Both the position numbers and the translations under genes were made by a program. This document shows positions 2,168 through 10,459 of a stretch of 40,532 nt of DNA, piece after piece (position 1 is the first letter of the stretch; each line of letters opens with the position of its first letter). Under the pieces are notes generated by a model, which did no database searches, was not told the DNA's origin, and saw nothing but the letters and a program-made list of their open reading frames with translations. The DNA is from Melioribacter sp. (lineage in GTDB: Bacteria > Bacteroidota > Ignavibacteria > Ignavibacteriales > Melioribacteraceae), in assembly GCA_012026935.1 (NCBI GenBank), contig VEPI01000095.1:1-40532 (forward strand). The letters run 5' to 3'.

Positions 2168-4234
2168 TTAATTTGTCTTTGTGTCTTTAAGGTATGATTT
2201 ATAAAATGCAATATTCAAACCAAGAGTAAACCAAACCATGGTTATAATTTCTTGATCGCCAAAATTCCATTCTCCAAGACCGGAAAACAGAAATCCAACA
2301 AAAGCTGCCGTTGCACCCAACGCATAAGAAGATACAAACGGAATATCTTTCACAGTTTTATATATTTTTAGATGCAACTGAAATATCTTGAACAGCATAA
2401 GCATAACTACTGCAAAACCAACTACTCCAAGTATAACTAATAGATGAACAAAATTGTTGTGCATATGTCCAAAATTTTCTTTGAGATATTTGTCCTTATA
2501 TTGAGAATATAAGTTCCCAAGATCAATATCTCCCACACCAAACAAAGGATGATCGGCCAAAATTTTGAATCCCGTCCGCCAAATGTTCATTCGTTCAATG
2601 TTGGTCTCATGATATGGATCATAAATGGACGCAAGACGATTCCTTTTATTAAATGCAGTATAAAATTTATCTCCGGATTTAATAAAATCAAAAGGTGAAT
2701 AACCAAGCGAGGTTATTTGCTTAAATTTACCAACATGTGAAGAATCAATATCGGCCTCCAATATTTTTCCATCAAGAGTACAAGCGAAAATGTTTTTATT
2801 GTTAAAGACCAATTGAATTGTACCGATTAGTTCCTGACTTACAACTTTCCTCAACTTATTATTTGATATAATAAACTGCACAAATTCTTTACCGCCTTGG
2901 AAAAATAAATGATCATTATTGAGCCAGACTAATCCGTAAATAGATTTTGTATCAAATGAATCTACTGCCGTTATAGGTAATCCATCCATGCATGTATAGA
3001 GTTTAAGTTTATGGTCGTCTGGCGTAAATGAAATAAATTGGGTAGAATTCCCATCAAAACTTTCTATACCATTTAATTTTTTAAAGGTAATTTTTTCGGC
3101 AAGATTTAAGGGATTCTGAAATATTGTAAGTCCGCTGTCTTTATCTGCAATATAAAATTTACCTTGTAACACTTTGAAGAAAGTTGTCTTGCCAGGTGAT
3201 GTAAAAATTTTATCCGAATGAAACTCACCATTTTTTTCCCTATTTAGTAATAGAATTCTCGTATCTGCTAAATAGGCTATGTAATAATTATCTTTCCATT
3301 TTTTTACTTGGGTAACAGGAGACGGTGTTTCAATTTTTTGGACCACTTTACCATCTTTATACGCAACTACACCGCTTTCATAATCAGCAATTAAGAGAGT
3401 ATCTCCTTCACATATAACTCTAATTGCCCGTCCTTCCGTTTTAATCGCATTGGTTTGAACAAATTGATTGTCCTTTATAACATATTCATATACTTTGCTT
3501 TCACTTTTGAAAAAGAATAAGGCAACAAGTAAAACTAAAATTAAGGGTGCAAGAATCAACCATTTACGTTTCAAGATAACTATCGTCAATATACCGGCTA
3601 CCCCGCCTAACCAGGCTGCACGAGTATAACTTGCAAATAGGCCAGTTGCCGCAATGCCAAAAGCAAGTAGATAAAAAAGCCGGATTGCGATTTTTGTCTT
3701 TTCATTTAACAGAAACGCGAAGAAAAAAATCATTGTAAAGCTCATCAATCCGCCTGCAGTCATAACATATTGGAATGGCGAGGGACCTTTTAATTCTATA
3801 CTGTATAACTGCGCTATGAAGTGCTCATAAGCAAATACTATGTACAACAGCATAGTAATTAGAGCAGCACCTATGTAGAACTTGAAAATTAATTTTGCTT
3901 TATCAGAATCGTTTATTACAGCAACTACTGTATAAACAACCGGGATAAGAATTAATCTCTTAAAAAATAATTTAAATGCATACTCTCGATCAACCGAAAA
4001 GATCGCCGAGACCAATTCTGCCGATAGGAAAAGAATAAATGCTAATTCCAATCCATTCTTCTCGAACCTATTATCTTTTTTTATTACAAATAGATATGTT
4101 AAAATAATAAGCGGAAAGAAATAGCCAATCTGATTTATGAAAATTGAGTTAGTAAGACTAACGGCAAAAAGTAAAATTAATCCCAAAATAATTTTATCAA
4201 CCGTTTTAACTCCGGTAAAGTACTTTGTAATCAT
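2168..4234 (-). CDS. O-antigen ligase/polymerase-family membrane protein with inserted beta-propeller-like domain
   Basis: A 688-residue polytopic protein of the WaaL/Wzy_C type, which transfers or polymerises undecaprenyl-linked glycans on the outer face of the inner membrane. About eight hydrophobic segments fill residues 1-243, including the family motif SYTRAAWLGG (202-211). The second signature, IWRTGFKILADHPLFGVG (551-568), and the MHNNFVHLLVILGVVG block (591-606) follow, and more TM segments run to 675. Between them, residues about 246-540 are soluble and read as seven units of roughly 40 residues, each with a short hydrophobic strand and a read-out turn. Ordinary members of the family have only a modest loop here. 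It abuts the msbA stop with no gap. Polymerase versus ligase cannot be settled. Confidence 0.85.
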   Translation of the reverse strand: MITKYFTGVKTVDKIILGLILLFAVSLTNSIFINQIGYFFPLIILTYLFVIKKDNRFEKNGLELAFILFLSAELVSAIFSVDREYAFKLFFKRLILIPVVYTVVAVINDSDKAKLIFKFYIGAALITMLLYIVFAYEHFIAQLYSIELKGPSPFQYVMTAGGLMSFTMIFFFAFLLNEKTKIAIRLFYLLAFGIAATGLFASYTRAAWLGGVAGILTIVILKRKWLILAPLILVLLVALFFFKSESKVYEYVIKDNQFVQTNAIKTEGRAIRVICEGDTLLIADYESGVVAYKDGKVVQKIETPSPVTQVKKWKDNYYIAYLADTRILLLNREKNGEFHSDKIFTSPGKTTFFKVLQGKFYIADKDSGLTIFQNPLNLAEKITFKKLNGIESFDGNSTQFISFTPDDHKLKLYTCMDGLPITAVDSFDTKSIYGLVWLNNDHLFFQGGKEFVQFIISNNKLRKVVSQELIGTIQLVFNNKNIFACTLDGKILEADIDSSHVGKFKQITSLGYSPFDFIKSGDKFYTAFNKRNRLASIYDPYHETNIERMNIWRTGFKILADHPLFGVGDIDLGNLYSQYKDKYLKENFGHMHNNFVHLLVILGVVGFAVVMLMLFKIFQLHLKIYKTVKDIPFVSSYALGATAAFVGFLFSGLGEWNFGDQEIITMVWFTLGLNIAFYKSYLKDTKTN

Positions 4235-6088
4235 CTAATCTCTGAATTGTAATTCATATAATTTTTTATATATGCCGTTTTCCTGAGAAAGTAGCTGTTC
4301 ATGCTTTCCATCCTGAACAATTTTACCGCGGTCGAGAACAATTATTCTGTCTGCGTTTCTAATTGTGCTTAGACGATGTGCAATAACAAATGTCGTGCGG
4401 TCATGCATTAATCTTTCTATAGCTTCTTGAACCAATACTTCCGATTCATTATCAAGTGATGATGTAGCCTCATCAAATATCATTATAGGGGGATTCTTTA
4501 ATAAAGCACGGGCAATAGAAATCCGCTGACGCTGACCACCGGAAAGTTTTGTACCCTTTTCCCCGATTATAGTATTGTAACCATTCGGCAGTTCAAGAAT
4601 AAAATTGTGTGCGTTTGCGGCTTTCGCTGCCGCAACTAATCTTTCCTCAGAGCAATCAACCAATCCATAAGCTATATTATTACGTGCTGATTCATTAAAG
4701 AGAACAGTCTCCTGAGTAACAATTCCCATAAGTTTACGCAAATCTTCAATGCGGATAGAACGAATATCCAGTCCATCTAACAAAATATTCCCATCTGTTG
4801 GATCAAAAAAACGGGGAAGTAAGTCCGCAAGTGTTGTTTTACCCGCGCCACTACTGCCTACAATTGCTAATACCTTTCCTTTTTTAACTTGCAGATTTAT
4901 TTTATCCAGAACCAGTTCTTCAGAATCATCATAATGGAAGGATACATTTTGGAATTCGATCATATCCTTAAAATCGGTAACAGATACGGGTGATTCGATA
5001 TTTCTTATTCTCGGTTCCGTATCCAGAATTTCAAAAACCCTTTCTGCAGCAGCGCTGGATTCCTGAATTCTATTATTAACGCCGCTTAATTCTTTTATTG
5101 GCGGCATCATTTGAAAAATGGCAAGTAGAAATACAATAAACTCGCTTGCATTTAAAGTTTTATTAACAAGAACAAGTTCGCCGCCGTAATATATCATTGC
5201 TGCACCCACTACAACACTTAAAAATTCTGTAAGCGGTGAGGCCATGTTTCTAACACGCGCCATTTTTAAAACTAATTTGAAAAAGCTTTGTGTTTGAGTT
5301 TTGAATTTATTGTTCTCATAATTTTCCATTCCAAAAGCTTTTACAATCTTTACGCCGGTTATAGTCTCATGTAATGTTGTAGTAATATTCGCCATCTTTT
5401 CTTGAAGCTGTCCGCTTTGTTTTCTAAGTATTAGACCAATCCAGCTAATTATTCCAATAGTAGGAGGCAAAACTAAAAGCGAAAAAAGTGTTAGCCGCCA
5501 GCTAATGGACAATGCTAATCCGATAAAGAATAAAATTGTTAATGGTTCGCGAATCATATTTAAGAAAACGGCAGAGACACTCGACTGAACTACGTTAACA
5601 TCATTAGTTATTCTGGAAATTAAGTTCCCCGTTTTTTCATTTTTGAAATAGCTCATCGGCAATTTATGTAAATGAACATAAGATTGATTCCTTAGATCGC
5701 GGATCATTCCCTGTTCTACATAAGCAAGAAAGTAAGCTTGTAAGTACCCGAAAATATTTTTTAGAAAAAATGCGAGTAAAATTAAAATACAAATTCGAAG
5801 AAGAATTTCTTTTTCAGTTCCGCTAAAAACAAAATTTTTGAATGCGTTTGAAATTTCCGTCCCAAGATTCGAAAACCAATTGCCAATCGGACTATCTACC
5901 GTCTGGCTAATAGTTTTAGATTCTACCGGTAAAGCTCCTTTCTCCTGGAAAAGTGTATTGAGTAAAGGAATCAACATATAAACAGAAATAGTATTAAGAA
6001 GAGCATATAGAATTGAAAAAATTACGGACGCTGATAAATGTTTCCGGTAAGGTTTTATATAAGTAAGAACTCTTTTGTAGGTGGTCAT
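4235..6088 (-). CDS. msbA: Lipid A/LPS-type ABC exporter (MsbA-like, fused TM and ATPase)
   Basis: A 617-residue half-transporter acting as a homodimer in the inner membrane, probably flipping core-lipid A or another glycolipid. The membrane domain covers residues 1-330. The ATPase domain has Walker A GSSGAGKTT (411-419), signature LSGGQRQRIS (515-524), Walker B IMIFDE (535-540) and the H-loop His571. Residues 51-90 between TM1 and TM2 are longer than in E. coli MsbA and would be periplasmic. The neighbours, a ligase and a core glycosyltransferase, favour lipid A export over drug export, though sequence alone cannot exclude the latter. The gene begins 7 bases after the lipoprotein stop. Confidence 0.88.
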   Translation of the reverse strand: MTTYKRVLTYIKPYRKHLSASVIFSILYALLNTISVYMLIPLLNTLFQEKGALPVESKTISQTVDSPIGNWFSNLGTEISNAFKNFVFSGTEKEILLRICILILLAFFLKNIFGYLQAYFLAYVEQGMIRDLRNQSYVHLHKLPMSYFKNEKTGNLISRITNDVNVVQSSVSAVFLNMIREPLTILFFIGLALSISWRLTLFSLLVLPPTIGIISWIGLILRKQSGQLQEKMANITTTLHETITGVKIVKAFGMENYENNKFKTQTQSFFKLVLKMARVRNMASPLTEFLSVVVGAAMIYYGGELVLVNKTLNASEFIVFLLAIFQMMPPIKELSGVNNRIQESSAAAERVFEILDTEPRIRNIESPVSVTDFKDMIEFQNVSFHYDDSEELVLDKINLQVKKGKVLAIVGSSGAGKTTLADLLPRFFDPTDGNILLDGLDIRSIRIEDLRKLMGIVTQETVLFNESARNNIAYGLVDCSEERLVAAAKAANAHNFILELPNGYNTIIGEKGTKLSGGQRQRISIARALLKNPPIMIFDEATSSLDNESEVLVQEAIERLMHDRTTFVIAHRLSTIRNADRIIVLDRGKIVQDGKHEQLLSQENGIYKKLYELQFRD

Positions 6089-6095
6089 TTAATTC

Positions 6096-7340
6096 TCACA
6101 TTGGAAGATTATTTAATCCGCATCCGCCATAAATCGAAATAGTATTCAATAATTTGTCCCGGGTATAATCATAAACCGCTATTTGGGCTATATCTTTTAA
6201 GCGCTCATCAAAAAATAATAACTTTCCATGAACTAACACATTTTCAAACTGAAATCCGGAAAAAATTCTTACGATTTTCATTTTTACGGCGTCTATTATT
6301 ATTATTTCCCCCGTTTTTTCAGCTTTTATTCCCTTAGAATCTGTAGCCGTATTGTCAGTAATTATGAAAAGGAAGTTTCCATCTTTCGACCATCTTGCAT
6401 CGTTAATATTTCTTTTCGTTGCAATTATTAATTCTTCGGAACGTTGTTTGAAATTCTTCAAGTAAATATTCGATTCATTATCCGATCGAACATTTCTAAA
6501 TTGGAAATCTTTGTTTGGTGATAAATAAACCGGGTTTCGTTTAGGTACAGCAGGAAATCCATGTTGGAGTAGATCATATTTTCTATTTTGTATAAAACCA
6601 AGTTTGCCATTTATATCAAACGGATAAATATTTTGTAATACAGTTTTAGAATTGATAGTATCTAATTTTGTGAAATTAACTTTAAAAGTATCGTTTGATT
6701 CCCAATATGTATAAAGCTGAACGCCATCTCCAGGTTCTACAAGTTCGTCCGACTGTTCATTGGCCCGATTCAAAAAATAAATTCTTGCTTCATGAATATA
6801 CGGGAAACTACTTTCCCTTCCGTAATTAAATGCAGTGGTTATAAATGCGCTTTCTTTATTAGGCAAGTAATTCAGGGAAATTACTTTCCTTTGCCATTTA
6901 CTCCATGCTATCGAACTTTGTTTTGTTAATAAATTGTAGCTGTAAACTGAAGGTCTTCCCAGGTACTTAGCGACAAATAATACATTTGTAAAAATATCAT
7001 CTACAGGCTTTCCATTGCGTACTATTTTATAATCTTTAATTAATGAGTTAGAATAAAAATCAAAAGCATTTTCACCGGCTTCAAATGAAGAAACAAATTC
7101 GCCTGACAATAAATGATATTTATTCTTACTGGATTTCTCAATTTTTAATGTAGAATTTAATTTGTTCTCCAATATGGATTTTATCTTGCCGGCTTCTTCC
7201 TGAGTCTTGAATTCACCGAGCGAGATTGAATATGTAATTCTATTGTTTTGGTCAATATCATAGTTAGATTTGGTGCATTCATTTACCATGAGAGACAAAA
7301 AAAGAAATGAGACTAATATTTGAAATCGTTTCATGTTCAT
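6096..7340 (-). CDS. Putative lipoprotein: SPOR-like domain plus beta-propeller-like domain
   Basis: I do not recognise a named family for the full 414 residues. The N-terminus is a signal peptide with Cys22 in MVNEC, a poor but possible lipobox. Residues about 35-107 look like one SPOR domain (ISLGEF, then a central basic strand, then LLSGEF, with two helices), the fold that binds denuded peptidoglycan at septa. Residues about 110-405 have propeller-like strand/turn repeats, including a TolB/WD-like ARWSKDGNFLFIITD. A second ATG at 7334 is equally possible. It starts 30 bases after xerD and is 7 bases from msbA, so it may monitor or position envelope synthesis. That role is inference. Confidence 0.65.
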   Translation of the reverse strand: MNMKRFQILVSFLFLSLMVNECTKSNYDIDQNNRITYSISLGEFKTQEEAGKIKSILENKLNSTLKIEKSSKNKYHLLSGEFVSSFEAGENAFDFYSNSLIKDYKIVRNGKPVDDIFTNVLFVAKYLGRPSVYSYNLLTKQSSIAWSKWQRKVISLNYLPNKESAFITTAFNYGRESSFPYIHEARIYFLNRANEQSDELVEPGDGVQLYTYWESNDTFKVNFTKLDTINSKTVLQNIYPFDINGKLGFIQNRKYDLLQHGFPAVPKRNPVYLSPNKDFQFRNVRSDNESNIYLKNFKQRSEELIIATKRNINDARWSKDGNFLFIITDNTATDSKGIKAEKTGEIIIIDAVKMKIVRIFSGFQFENVLVHGKLLFFDERLKDIAQIAVYDYTRDKLLNTISIYGGCGLNNLPM

Positions 7341-8266: not shown

Positions 8267-10459
8267 TTATTCTTCGCTCTTAGTGTTTTCCAGTTCCTCT
8301 TGTTTTGGATATCGTATTCTCTTGTGCTGATGACCCACAAGAATACTCAAGAACGATTCTTTAATTTGTTTTACATCCTTAAATGTAAGCGGGGCTTCAT
8401 CAAGCTGACCGTCATCAATCCTGCTGTTGATTAAATTGTTAATAACATTCTCAATTTTTTGGGTATCGGCGTCACTCAAGGAACGTATTGTTGATTCACA
8501 AGCATCTGCAAGCATAACTATTGCTGTTTCTTTTGTATTAGGTTTTGGTCCCGGGTAACGGTAATCATTCAAATCAACTTTATCCTCTCCATACAATTCT
8601 TTTGCTTTTTCGTAGAAATAAGATATTGTCATTGTACCATGATGCATTGGAATAAAATCTATTATCTCTTTCGGAAGTGAATAAGTTTGACCTAATTCAA
8701 TTCCTTTTTTAACATGATCTAAAATAAGCTTAACACTTCTTTCCGGAGACAAATACTCATGAATATTTTTTGAATCTATTTGATTTTCTACAAAGCTTTC
8801 AGGATCAACAGTTTTACCTATATCATGATAATAAGCCCCCACACGTGCAAGTGTAGAATTAGCTCCGATGGCTTCTGCTGTTGTTTCAACCAGAGTACCC
8901 ATAGTAATCGAATGATTGAAAGTTCCGGGCGCACTTTTTGCTAATTCCCGTAATAATGGTTGATTAAAGTCCGTTAACTCCAGCAGGGTTAAATCAGTAG
9001 TAATCTTAAATATCCGTTCTACAAAAATTATAAGACCATAAGTTAAAACCGGACTTATCAAAGCATTAGAAACCGCAAAGGCAAAGCTCGACAGCAACTG
9101 ATTAAAGGAATCAAATCTTTCAAAGCCAAAGGCAACAATACTTAATGCATAACCGATGAAGATATAAAAAAATGAACGGAAGATTTGAGTCCGATTCTTA
9201 ATATCACGCACAGTAAAAGCGGCTAGCCCGCCTGCAATTATATTAGTCAGTGCAAATGCATAATCATTTCCCCGCAGACCGCCAACAATTAAAGAAGTAA
9301 TTACCGTTCCATAAAATCCTACACGTGAATCAAAAATAATTGTTAACAACATTGATGCAACCGGAACAAGAACCAGGTATTCTCCTGGCGAAGGAATATC
9401 AAGTTTATAAACAAGAAAAGTTAAAAAGCTTATGAACAGAATAATACATGTGATGAGAATAATTTTAAAGTTATCGTTTAAAATTCTTCTTCTGAAAAGA
9501 ACGATATAAATAATGAACGGTAATAATACAATAAGAATATGTAAAAACTTTCCAAAATTTTGAGAGAGACTTCCCCAAAATCCCGTCCCTTGCCCTTTTG
9601 CAATTTTATATGAATCTATTTTTAATTTTATATCCGGTGTTATGCGGTCATGTTTTGTAATTATTCGTTCGTTTTCATTTACTATACCCACATTTGGAGG
9701 AATTTTATCTTTTGCATTTTGAACGGCCAAATTTGTTAATTGTCTACTAAAGACTAAGTTGGGTTTAAGAAAATTAGCGATGTATTCCTCTATAGCAACA
9801 TTTAATTCAGTATTACTTCCAACGTTTCCATTAAGATAGAATTGAATAAAATCATTTACTGATTTACGATCTAAATAATTAGTCTTGGGAAAAGCGTTCT
9901 CAAATTTACCGTCTCTTAATGCAATGCTGTCCCTTGGAATATCTTGATAGCTAAGACTAAGCAATCCGCGTTGATAAATTTTCTTTATTATTTGTGAAGC
10001 AACGTTAAAGACTTGTGTAATTGAAAGAATTCTCGCTCCGGTAAAGGATTTTTGTTTATGAACAAATTTAAAAAGTGTCGTATAAGATTCATCGCTAAGT
10101 AATTTACCTGTATTACGAACATTGTTATTTTTCAACAATGCTGAGGCAAGAATTGAATTTGTATCCTTTAGTGAATCCAAATAAAATTTTTCTAAGCCGA
10201 CATCTCTAAGAAATATTGGCAGAATCGTTTTAGCGGCTTGAGTTTTTTCATTTTCGTAAGTCTTCGGATCTTTAAGTATTTCAAAAGTAATGGAGGAAAT
10301 AAGATCTTCGTGAATCCAAACAGAACCAACCGTTACTTCAGATTCAATTGATTCACCTTTGGGAAACATCAATACAATTAAAAATGCGGTAAGAATAATT
10401 ATCGCAAATTTAATCTGTAAACTTGATCTTAGTTTTTCACTCATTTTAGTATTAATCAT
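8267..10459 (-). CDS. pgpH: 7TMR-HD family c-di-AMP phosphodiesterase (PgpH-like)
   Basis: A 730-residue inner-membrane enzyme likely to hydrolyse cyclic di-AMP. The order is TM near residues 17-32, a large extracytoplasmic domain (about 35-300), a seven-helix membrane block (about 305-490), then a cytoplasmic HD domain with His516, His545-Asp546 (YYHDIGK), His580, His606-His607 and Asp652. This is the 7TM-7TMR_HD plus HDED architecture of Listeria PgpH. The HD residues look intact. A second in-frame ATG is at 10444; neither has a strong ribosome-binding site. The 293 bases upstream are the longest gene-free stretch here. The specific nucleotide is inferred from the family. Confidence 0.9.
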   Translation of the reverse strand: MINTKMSEKLRSSLQIKFAIIILTAFLIVLMFPKGESIESEVTVGSVWIHEDLISSITFEILKDPKTYENEKTQAAKTILPIFLRDVGLEKFYLDSLKDTNSILASALLKNNNVRNTGKLLSDESYTTLFKFVHKQKSFTGARILSITQVFNVASQIIKKIYQRGLLSLSYQDIPRDSIALRDGKFENAFPKTNYLDRKSVNDFIQFYLNGNVGSNTELNVAIEEYIANFLKPNLVFSRQLTNLAVQNAKDKIPPNVGIVNENERIITKHDRITPDIKLKIDSYKIAKGQGTGFWGSLSQNFGKFLHILIVLLPFIIYIVLFRRRILNDNFKIILITCIILFISFLTFLVYKLDIPSPGEYLVLVPVASMLLTIIFDSRVGFYGTVITSLIVGGLRGNDYAFALTNIIAGGLAAFTVRDIKNRTQIFRSFFYIFIGYALSIVAFGFERFDSFNQLLSSFAFAVSNALISPVLTYGLIIFVERIFKITTDLTLLELTDFNQPLLRELAKSAPGTFNHSITMGTLVETTAEAIGANSTLARVGAYYHDIGKTVDPESFVENQIDSKNIHEYLSPERSVKLILDHVKKGIELGQTYSLPKEIIDFIPMHHGTMTISYFYEKAKELYGEDKVDLNDYRYPGPKPNTKETAIVMLADACESTIRSLSDADTQKIENVINNLINSRIDDGQLDEAPLTFKDVKQIKESFLSILVGHQHKRIRYPKQEELENTKSEE

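Follow-up and report, generated by a model that had tools for sequence, protein, structure and literature searches.

The Wzy superfamily includes ligase, polymerase and protein O-oligosaccharyltransferase activities and, to our knowledge, the recognition of the acceptor by its WaaL-type ligases is poorly understood. The closest described enzyme is the WaaL O-antigen ligase (PDB 7TPG/7TPJ, CAZy GT121, Pfam PF04932), in which Arg191 and Arg265 bind the phosphate of undecaprenyl pyrophosphate (Und-PP) and His313 is the proposed activator of the acceptor; polymerases of the clan carry, in most families, an Asp or Glu in place of this His (PMC10920833). Recognition of LPS polysaccharide by a propeller protein has been described for PorZ of Porphyromonas gingivalis (PMC8545088). 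A literature search of incomplete coverage returned no account of a propeller inside an O-antigen ligase, the nearest items being the PorZ work and a lipocone paper, and the architecture reported here, a propeller within an O-antigen ligase, appears to be undescribed.

The window analyzed in this work, which is the whole stretch of 40,532 nucleotides of a Melioribacter sp. contig (VEPI01000095.1), encodes at positions 2168-4234 of the minus strand, on which all features given below are located, a WaaL/Wzy_C-family membrane protein of the O-antigen-ligase type, 688 amino acids in length and with an inserted propeller. Wzy_C was the sole family identified by Pfam in this protein, scoring 65.8 bits (cut-off 31.7) over two stretches, the better of which spans residues 539-610. 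A genome-scale scan for the same family placed its other half at approximately residues 191-255 (3470-3664), and the domain is therefore broken by about 285 residues. When the profile of the fused-ligase family was compared to solved structures, the 7TPG ligase was the only significant match (E 1e-5), and direct profile alignment places R548 (2591-2593) on Arg265 and H592 (2459-2461) on His313. The related family of ligases without a propeller aligns with 7TPG over positions 34-380 (E 1e-13), with its invariant Arg on Arg191, and in the alignment of both families this Arg occupies the same position as R205 of the window protein (3620-3622). Together with H590, these three residues are invariant across 30 fused proteins and 11 propeller-less ones. 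Hydropathy analysis indicates approximately 10-12 overlapping transmembrane segments, for an expectation of about 12 in WaaL, in a part of the protein where the structural model is of low confidence. Since Wzy_C, the match to 7TPG and the invariant catalytic-type residues are all preserved, the predicted activity of the 688-aa protein is that of a WaaL-type O-antigen (surface polysaccharide) ligase. The presence of His at the H592 position favors a ligase over a polymerase, because most polymerases of the clan present Asp or Glu there (PMC10920833). KdtA/WaaA is encoded in the same genome, which is consistent with LPS. The window protein hence shares with 7TPG/7TPJ the Wzy_C domain, the two Arg and the His, and the position of the catalytic periplasmic loop, and differs from it by the roughly 285 additional residues located between a transmembrane helix and that loop.

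These additional residues, 246-529 (2648-3499), almost certainly constitute a seven-bladed beta-propeller inserted in the ligase, as indicated by structure prediction, fold comparison, sequence periodicity and clean junctions on both sides. Modeled on its own with AlphaFold2, the insert yielded 28 strands arranged as seven four-stranded blades, with a mean pLDDT of 87.5 and a pTM of 0.85. In the model of the full protein pLDDT values ranged from 80 to 90 for most of residues 246-530 and from 30 to 60 for most of the membrane part, all models being built on four sequences. Structural alignment of the insert with VIA-align 2 against the top solved propellers, which include 6-phosphogluconolactonase and pre-ribosomal WD domains, gave Z values of about 22-24 and an rmsd of 2.7-3.1 over approximately 264-276 residues. 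Foldseek agrees with the propeller fold, BamB and WD40 scaffolds being among the closest PDB folds. The repeats can also be detected in sequence. Local self-alignment of a 40-sequence insert profile revealed repeats at offsets of 79-81, 121-124, 162-164, 203-207 and about 243 residues, that is, at multiples of approximately 40.5, with scores from 20.9 down to 7.5, whereas none of 20 column-shuffled controls exceeded 6.6. This test and the AlphaFold2 fold rule out a chance pattern of strands.

Searched alone, the insert of the window protein matched no family above cut-off in Pfam, PHROGs or NCBIfam, the best single-sequence hint being a COPA/B propeller in Pfam with an E of 0.0012, under the cut-off. 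The wider family is more informative: LVIVD (PF08309) was matched in 11 of 40 members (best E 5e-7), with the window's own insert outside this group, and the insert profile of the 40 relatives matched YncE-family propellers in the PDB (E 8e-6). The propeller appears to be of LVIVD/YncE character. It shares its fold and a blade motif such as FYIADKDSGLTIFQNP with LVIVD-repeat and YncE-family propellers, including two LVIVD proteins of the same order with a type IX secretion system (T9SS) tail, but these propellers are separate, often secreted proteins, whereas that of the window sits within a membrane enzyme. Within its own genome the insert profile matches only the ligase itself, which leaves the distant, insert-like LVIVD proteins of relatives as the best hint to the source of the insert. 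The same genome presents 57 matches to T9SS sorting domains.

The strands predicted by AlphaFold2 delimit blade 1 at residues 270-301 (3332-3427), with a conserved ADYESG turn; blade 2 at residues 307-345 (3200-3316), with a conserved D324/R326 turn; blade 3 at residues 350-384 (3083-3187), with conserved positions and the LVIVD-like ADKDSGLTIFQNP; blades 4 (392-428; 2951-3061), 5 (434-468; 2831-2935) and 6 (472-509; 2708-2821); and the inner half of blade 7 at residues 514-529 (2648-2695). As judged from strand order, blade 7 would comprise strands 514-520 and 523-529, closed by strands 246-254 and 257-266 from the N-terminal end of the insert (residues 246-266; 3437-3499), which would provide its outer half. 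The segment that follows, residues 530-545 (KRNRLASIYDPYHETN; 2600-2647), aligns with unbroken ligase sequence in the 11 propeller-less ligases and corresponds to the ancestral start of the catalytic loop, which indicates that ligase sequence resumes at about residue 530. The junction reads, for example, ...FFLFAPPSQIERAKSIVNPYHPANIGRLHMW in the propeller-less form and ...ALFFFKSES[246-529]KRNRLASIYDPYHETNIERMNIW in the fused form, S246 being counted with the insert. The original prediction had placed a propeller-like domain at residues 246-540 (3499-2615) of this open reading frame, within the extracytoplasmic loop of a member of the WaaL family. The frame, these positions and all seven peptides quoted for the repeat units were recovered as claimed, and the seven-bladed fold in that loop was borne out by the structure prediction that had been proposed as a check, by the fold match and by the comparison with propeller-less orthologs. 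The end of the domain had been set too far downstream, at 540 instead of near 529. The units of about 40 residues do repeat beyond shuffled controls, and units 1-6 coincide with the b-c hairpins of blades 1-6, but unit 7 is half propeller and half ligase.

Full-length fusions were detected in 77 of the 164 genomes of the order (E < 1e-100), a count that includes some split by contig ends and one with internal stops. The window's own genome holds one copy, and the nearest named relative is a Melioribacter sp. MAG (93 %). The single-sequence scan of genome contigs yielded three loci, and the broader genome searches were conducted within the phylum. Inspection of loci from the order did not reveal a propeller-less form at this place. 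The nearest homologs beyond the order, still within the class, are 385-440 aa long and align with the model on either side of the insert, not within it (core-model E down to 3e-78). Of the eleven such ligases from other orders that were compared, most share the cluster of MsbA, ligase, GT2 and NAD kinase with small variations; they have the same catalytic and EWNFGD-type motifs, and their transmembrane helix runs directly into R..SI.D..HP.N..R. In a tree of the ligase core, a branch with support of 98/99 separates all 40 fused forms from the rest, and a single insertion is therefore the simplest history, with the propeller probably acquired once, in an ancestor of the order; given that the tree is unrooted, an ancestral insert lost elsewhere would be a less simple alternative. 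The same tree mixes two families within the order, which suggests transfer or old paralogy of the fused ligase. Other long Wzy_C proteins of the phylum were also inspected. In the six examined, Wzy_C and repeats occur together as well, but the extra length, mostly TPR, comes after an uninterrupted Wzy_C domain, and since these proteins are extended C-terminally the loop is not ordinarily so long. The propeller-less homologs and these C-terminal extensions rule out a loop of common length in ordinary ligases, which in this phylum differ from the window protein in both the length and the fold of the loop. Neither this refuting condition of the original prediction nor the one on the predicted fold was therefore borne out.

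The ligase gene is embedded in a cluster of conserved composition. Immediately upstream lies an MsbA-like ABC transporter (4235-6088), identified through synteny and a TIGR02203 (MsbA) score of 556.6 bits, for a cut-off of 602. A GT2 glycosyltransferase (1387-2211; PF00535, 49.7 bits), initially described as WaaE-like, overlaps the 3' end of the ligase gene and is likewise syntenic, and an NAD kinase-like gene annotated by eye (503-1390) marks the cluster inside and outside the order. Across 20 fused loci, MsbA directly precedes the ligase on the same strand in 15 and lies on the opposite strand in 2, and a GT2 gene follows directly downstream in 8. The fusion is thus usually, not always, accompanied by MsbA and often lacks the GT2 gene, so that a constant association with both genes, raised as a question at the outset, is not borne out; in three fused loci the ligase lies away from MsbA, beside other unannotated genes. 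MsbA also adjoins most propeller-less ligases, which implies that the neighborhood predates the insert. Further upstream, between XerC and MsbA, a 414-aa predicted lipoprotein (6096-7340) with an invariant Cys near residue 22 and a C-terminal GGCGL is conserved in the order; it belongs to no clear Pfam family, 2 of 12 members match SPOR weakly, and its second half is propeller-like by eye. Its candidacy as an obligate partner of the ligase is unlikely, because it is kept in three genomes without the ligase. A 7TM-HD family protein (8267-10459; 7TMR-HDED, 7TM-7TMR_HD and HD), which maintains conserved synteny with XerC, is found upstream of the cluster.

The insert evolves faster than the ligase core. 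In the closest pair its dN/dS is 0.12, compared to 0.06 for the core, which denotes purifying selection, and in other pairs with unsaturated dS it ranges from approximately 0.11 to 0.25. The whole ligase gene has also been lost repeatedly, with at least two different deletions among close relatives at three loci that preserve the MsbA-GT2 junction. In genomes G028 and G021 the gene was removed by a deletion between short near-repeats (TTTnTAAATCA-like) located near codons 32-36 and 676-680, which spares the first 36 codons or so and the end of the gene, and in G022 through a different deletion. The genes flanking the lost ligase are mostly 75-93 % identical to those of the window. Absence from such close relatives indicates that the gene is dispensable there, and repeated loss of the ligase would be expected for a function in surface polysaccharide.

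The most conserved residues of the propeller are T266, G268, D284, Y285, G288, P306, D324, R326, G348, D364, D366, S367 and G368. They lie within or bordering the b-c or d-a loops of the first three blades, while the same loops of blades 4-6 and most loops of the opposite face are variable. Propellers typically have their b-c and d-a loops on a single side, here termed the top face. The difference in conservation between top and bottom faces has a p of 0.003 per residue and, more weakly, 0.09 per loop, and the D..G motifs in the turns of blades 1 and 3 are partly generic to LVIVD repeats and may have a structural role. From the same strand order that assigns blade 7, the chain would enter and exit the propeller at the b-c position of this blade, on the conserved face. 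With conserved loops and attachment points on one side, we infer that the top face is directed toward the membrane and the catalytic loop, whose Arg548 is located just 19 residues past the insert.

A mechanism can be proposed on this basis. An ancestor of the order would have gained a propeller where the catalytic periplasmic loop begins, after the transmembrane helix and ahead of the Arg/His segment, and would have kept the ligase chemistry, with two Arg holding undecaprenyl pyrophosphate and a His activating the acceptor sugar. The propeller would lie directly against the active site, its top face turned to the membrane and the catalytic loop, and might bind and position a glycolipid substrate or gate its access, the most plausible substrate being the lipid A-core acceptor freshly flipped by the adjacent MsbA. 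PorZ offers a possible functional analogy only: it comprises two propellers and a T9SS C-terminal domain, acts at the cell surface as part of type IX secretion and is not a ligase, whereas the window protein carries one propeller in a membrane enzyme. The reading that we favor, to which we would assign a probability of approximately 45%, is that the protein is a WaaL-type ligase of an LPS-bearing, type IX-secreting relative of Melioribacter, in which the propeller recognizes the acceptor or donor glycolipid or gates its access.

This reading has to be weighed against others that accept the architecture and interpret it differently. The propeller could be a docking platform, linking the ligase to a protein partner such as MsbA, Lpt or type IX secretion components, in place of a glycan binder. 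Propellers commonly mediate protein contacts (see also PMC8545088), BamB and WD40 scaffolds figure among the closest folds, and MsbA is the most constant neighbor of the fusion. Yet MsbA also accompanies most propeller-less ligases and does not account for the insert, a non-systematic look revealed no further gene that follows the fusion, and the conserved residues map to the predicted face of the attachment points, not to a distal face; we consider docking somewhat doubtful. That the conserved loops of blades 1-3 share a side with both attachment points could also suit a structural brace or lid of the catalytic loop that has no ligand of its own and packs its conserved face on the ligase core, as could the faster evolution of the insert. 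We regard such a role as unlikely, since 11 relatives, most in the same cluster and with the same catalytic residues, presumably function without a propeller, and the retention of an insert of single origin despite great sequence divergence points to a role under selection.

A different enzymatic identity is more improbable still. All three activities occur in the Wzy superfamily, and the protein could be a protein O-oligosaccharyltransferase or a polymerase instead of a lipid A-core ligase, the propeller reading a protein acceptor or the growing chain; the proteins with T9SS sorting domains would be possible acceptors at the cell surface. Against a polymerase, the acceptor-activating position holds His, not Asp or Glu (PMC10920833); the linkage to MsbA favors LPS; and genome G028, from which the ligase gene was lost, still presents 61 T9SS-tail matches. 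An artifact, either a chimeric assembly or chance strands forming no propeller, has no supporting point and is refuted by the occurrence of the fusion in 77 genomes, by an insert length that is uniform across 30 aligned members (293-305 aa) and by the confidently predicted fold.

Under the favored reading of a recognition or gating domain, the propeller may, more tentatively, act as a built-in LPS or glycan receptor that chooses the acceptor or the chain, in which case this choice would be encoded in the order by the insert and not by the loops of the ligase core. The recognition domain of a WaaL-type ligase would then be separate and soluble in one lineage, with close propeller-less orthologs at the same locus available for comparison, and a propeller that can be expressed alone would make acceptor recognition directly testable.
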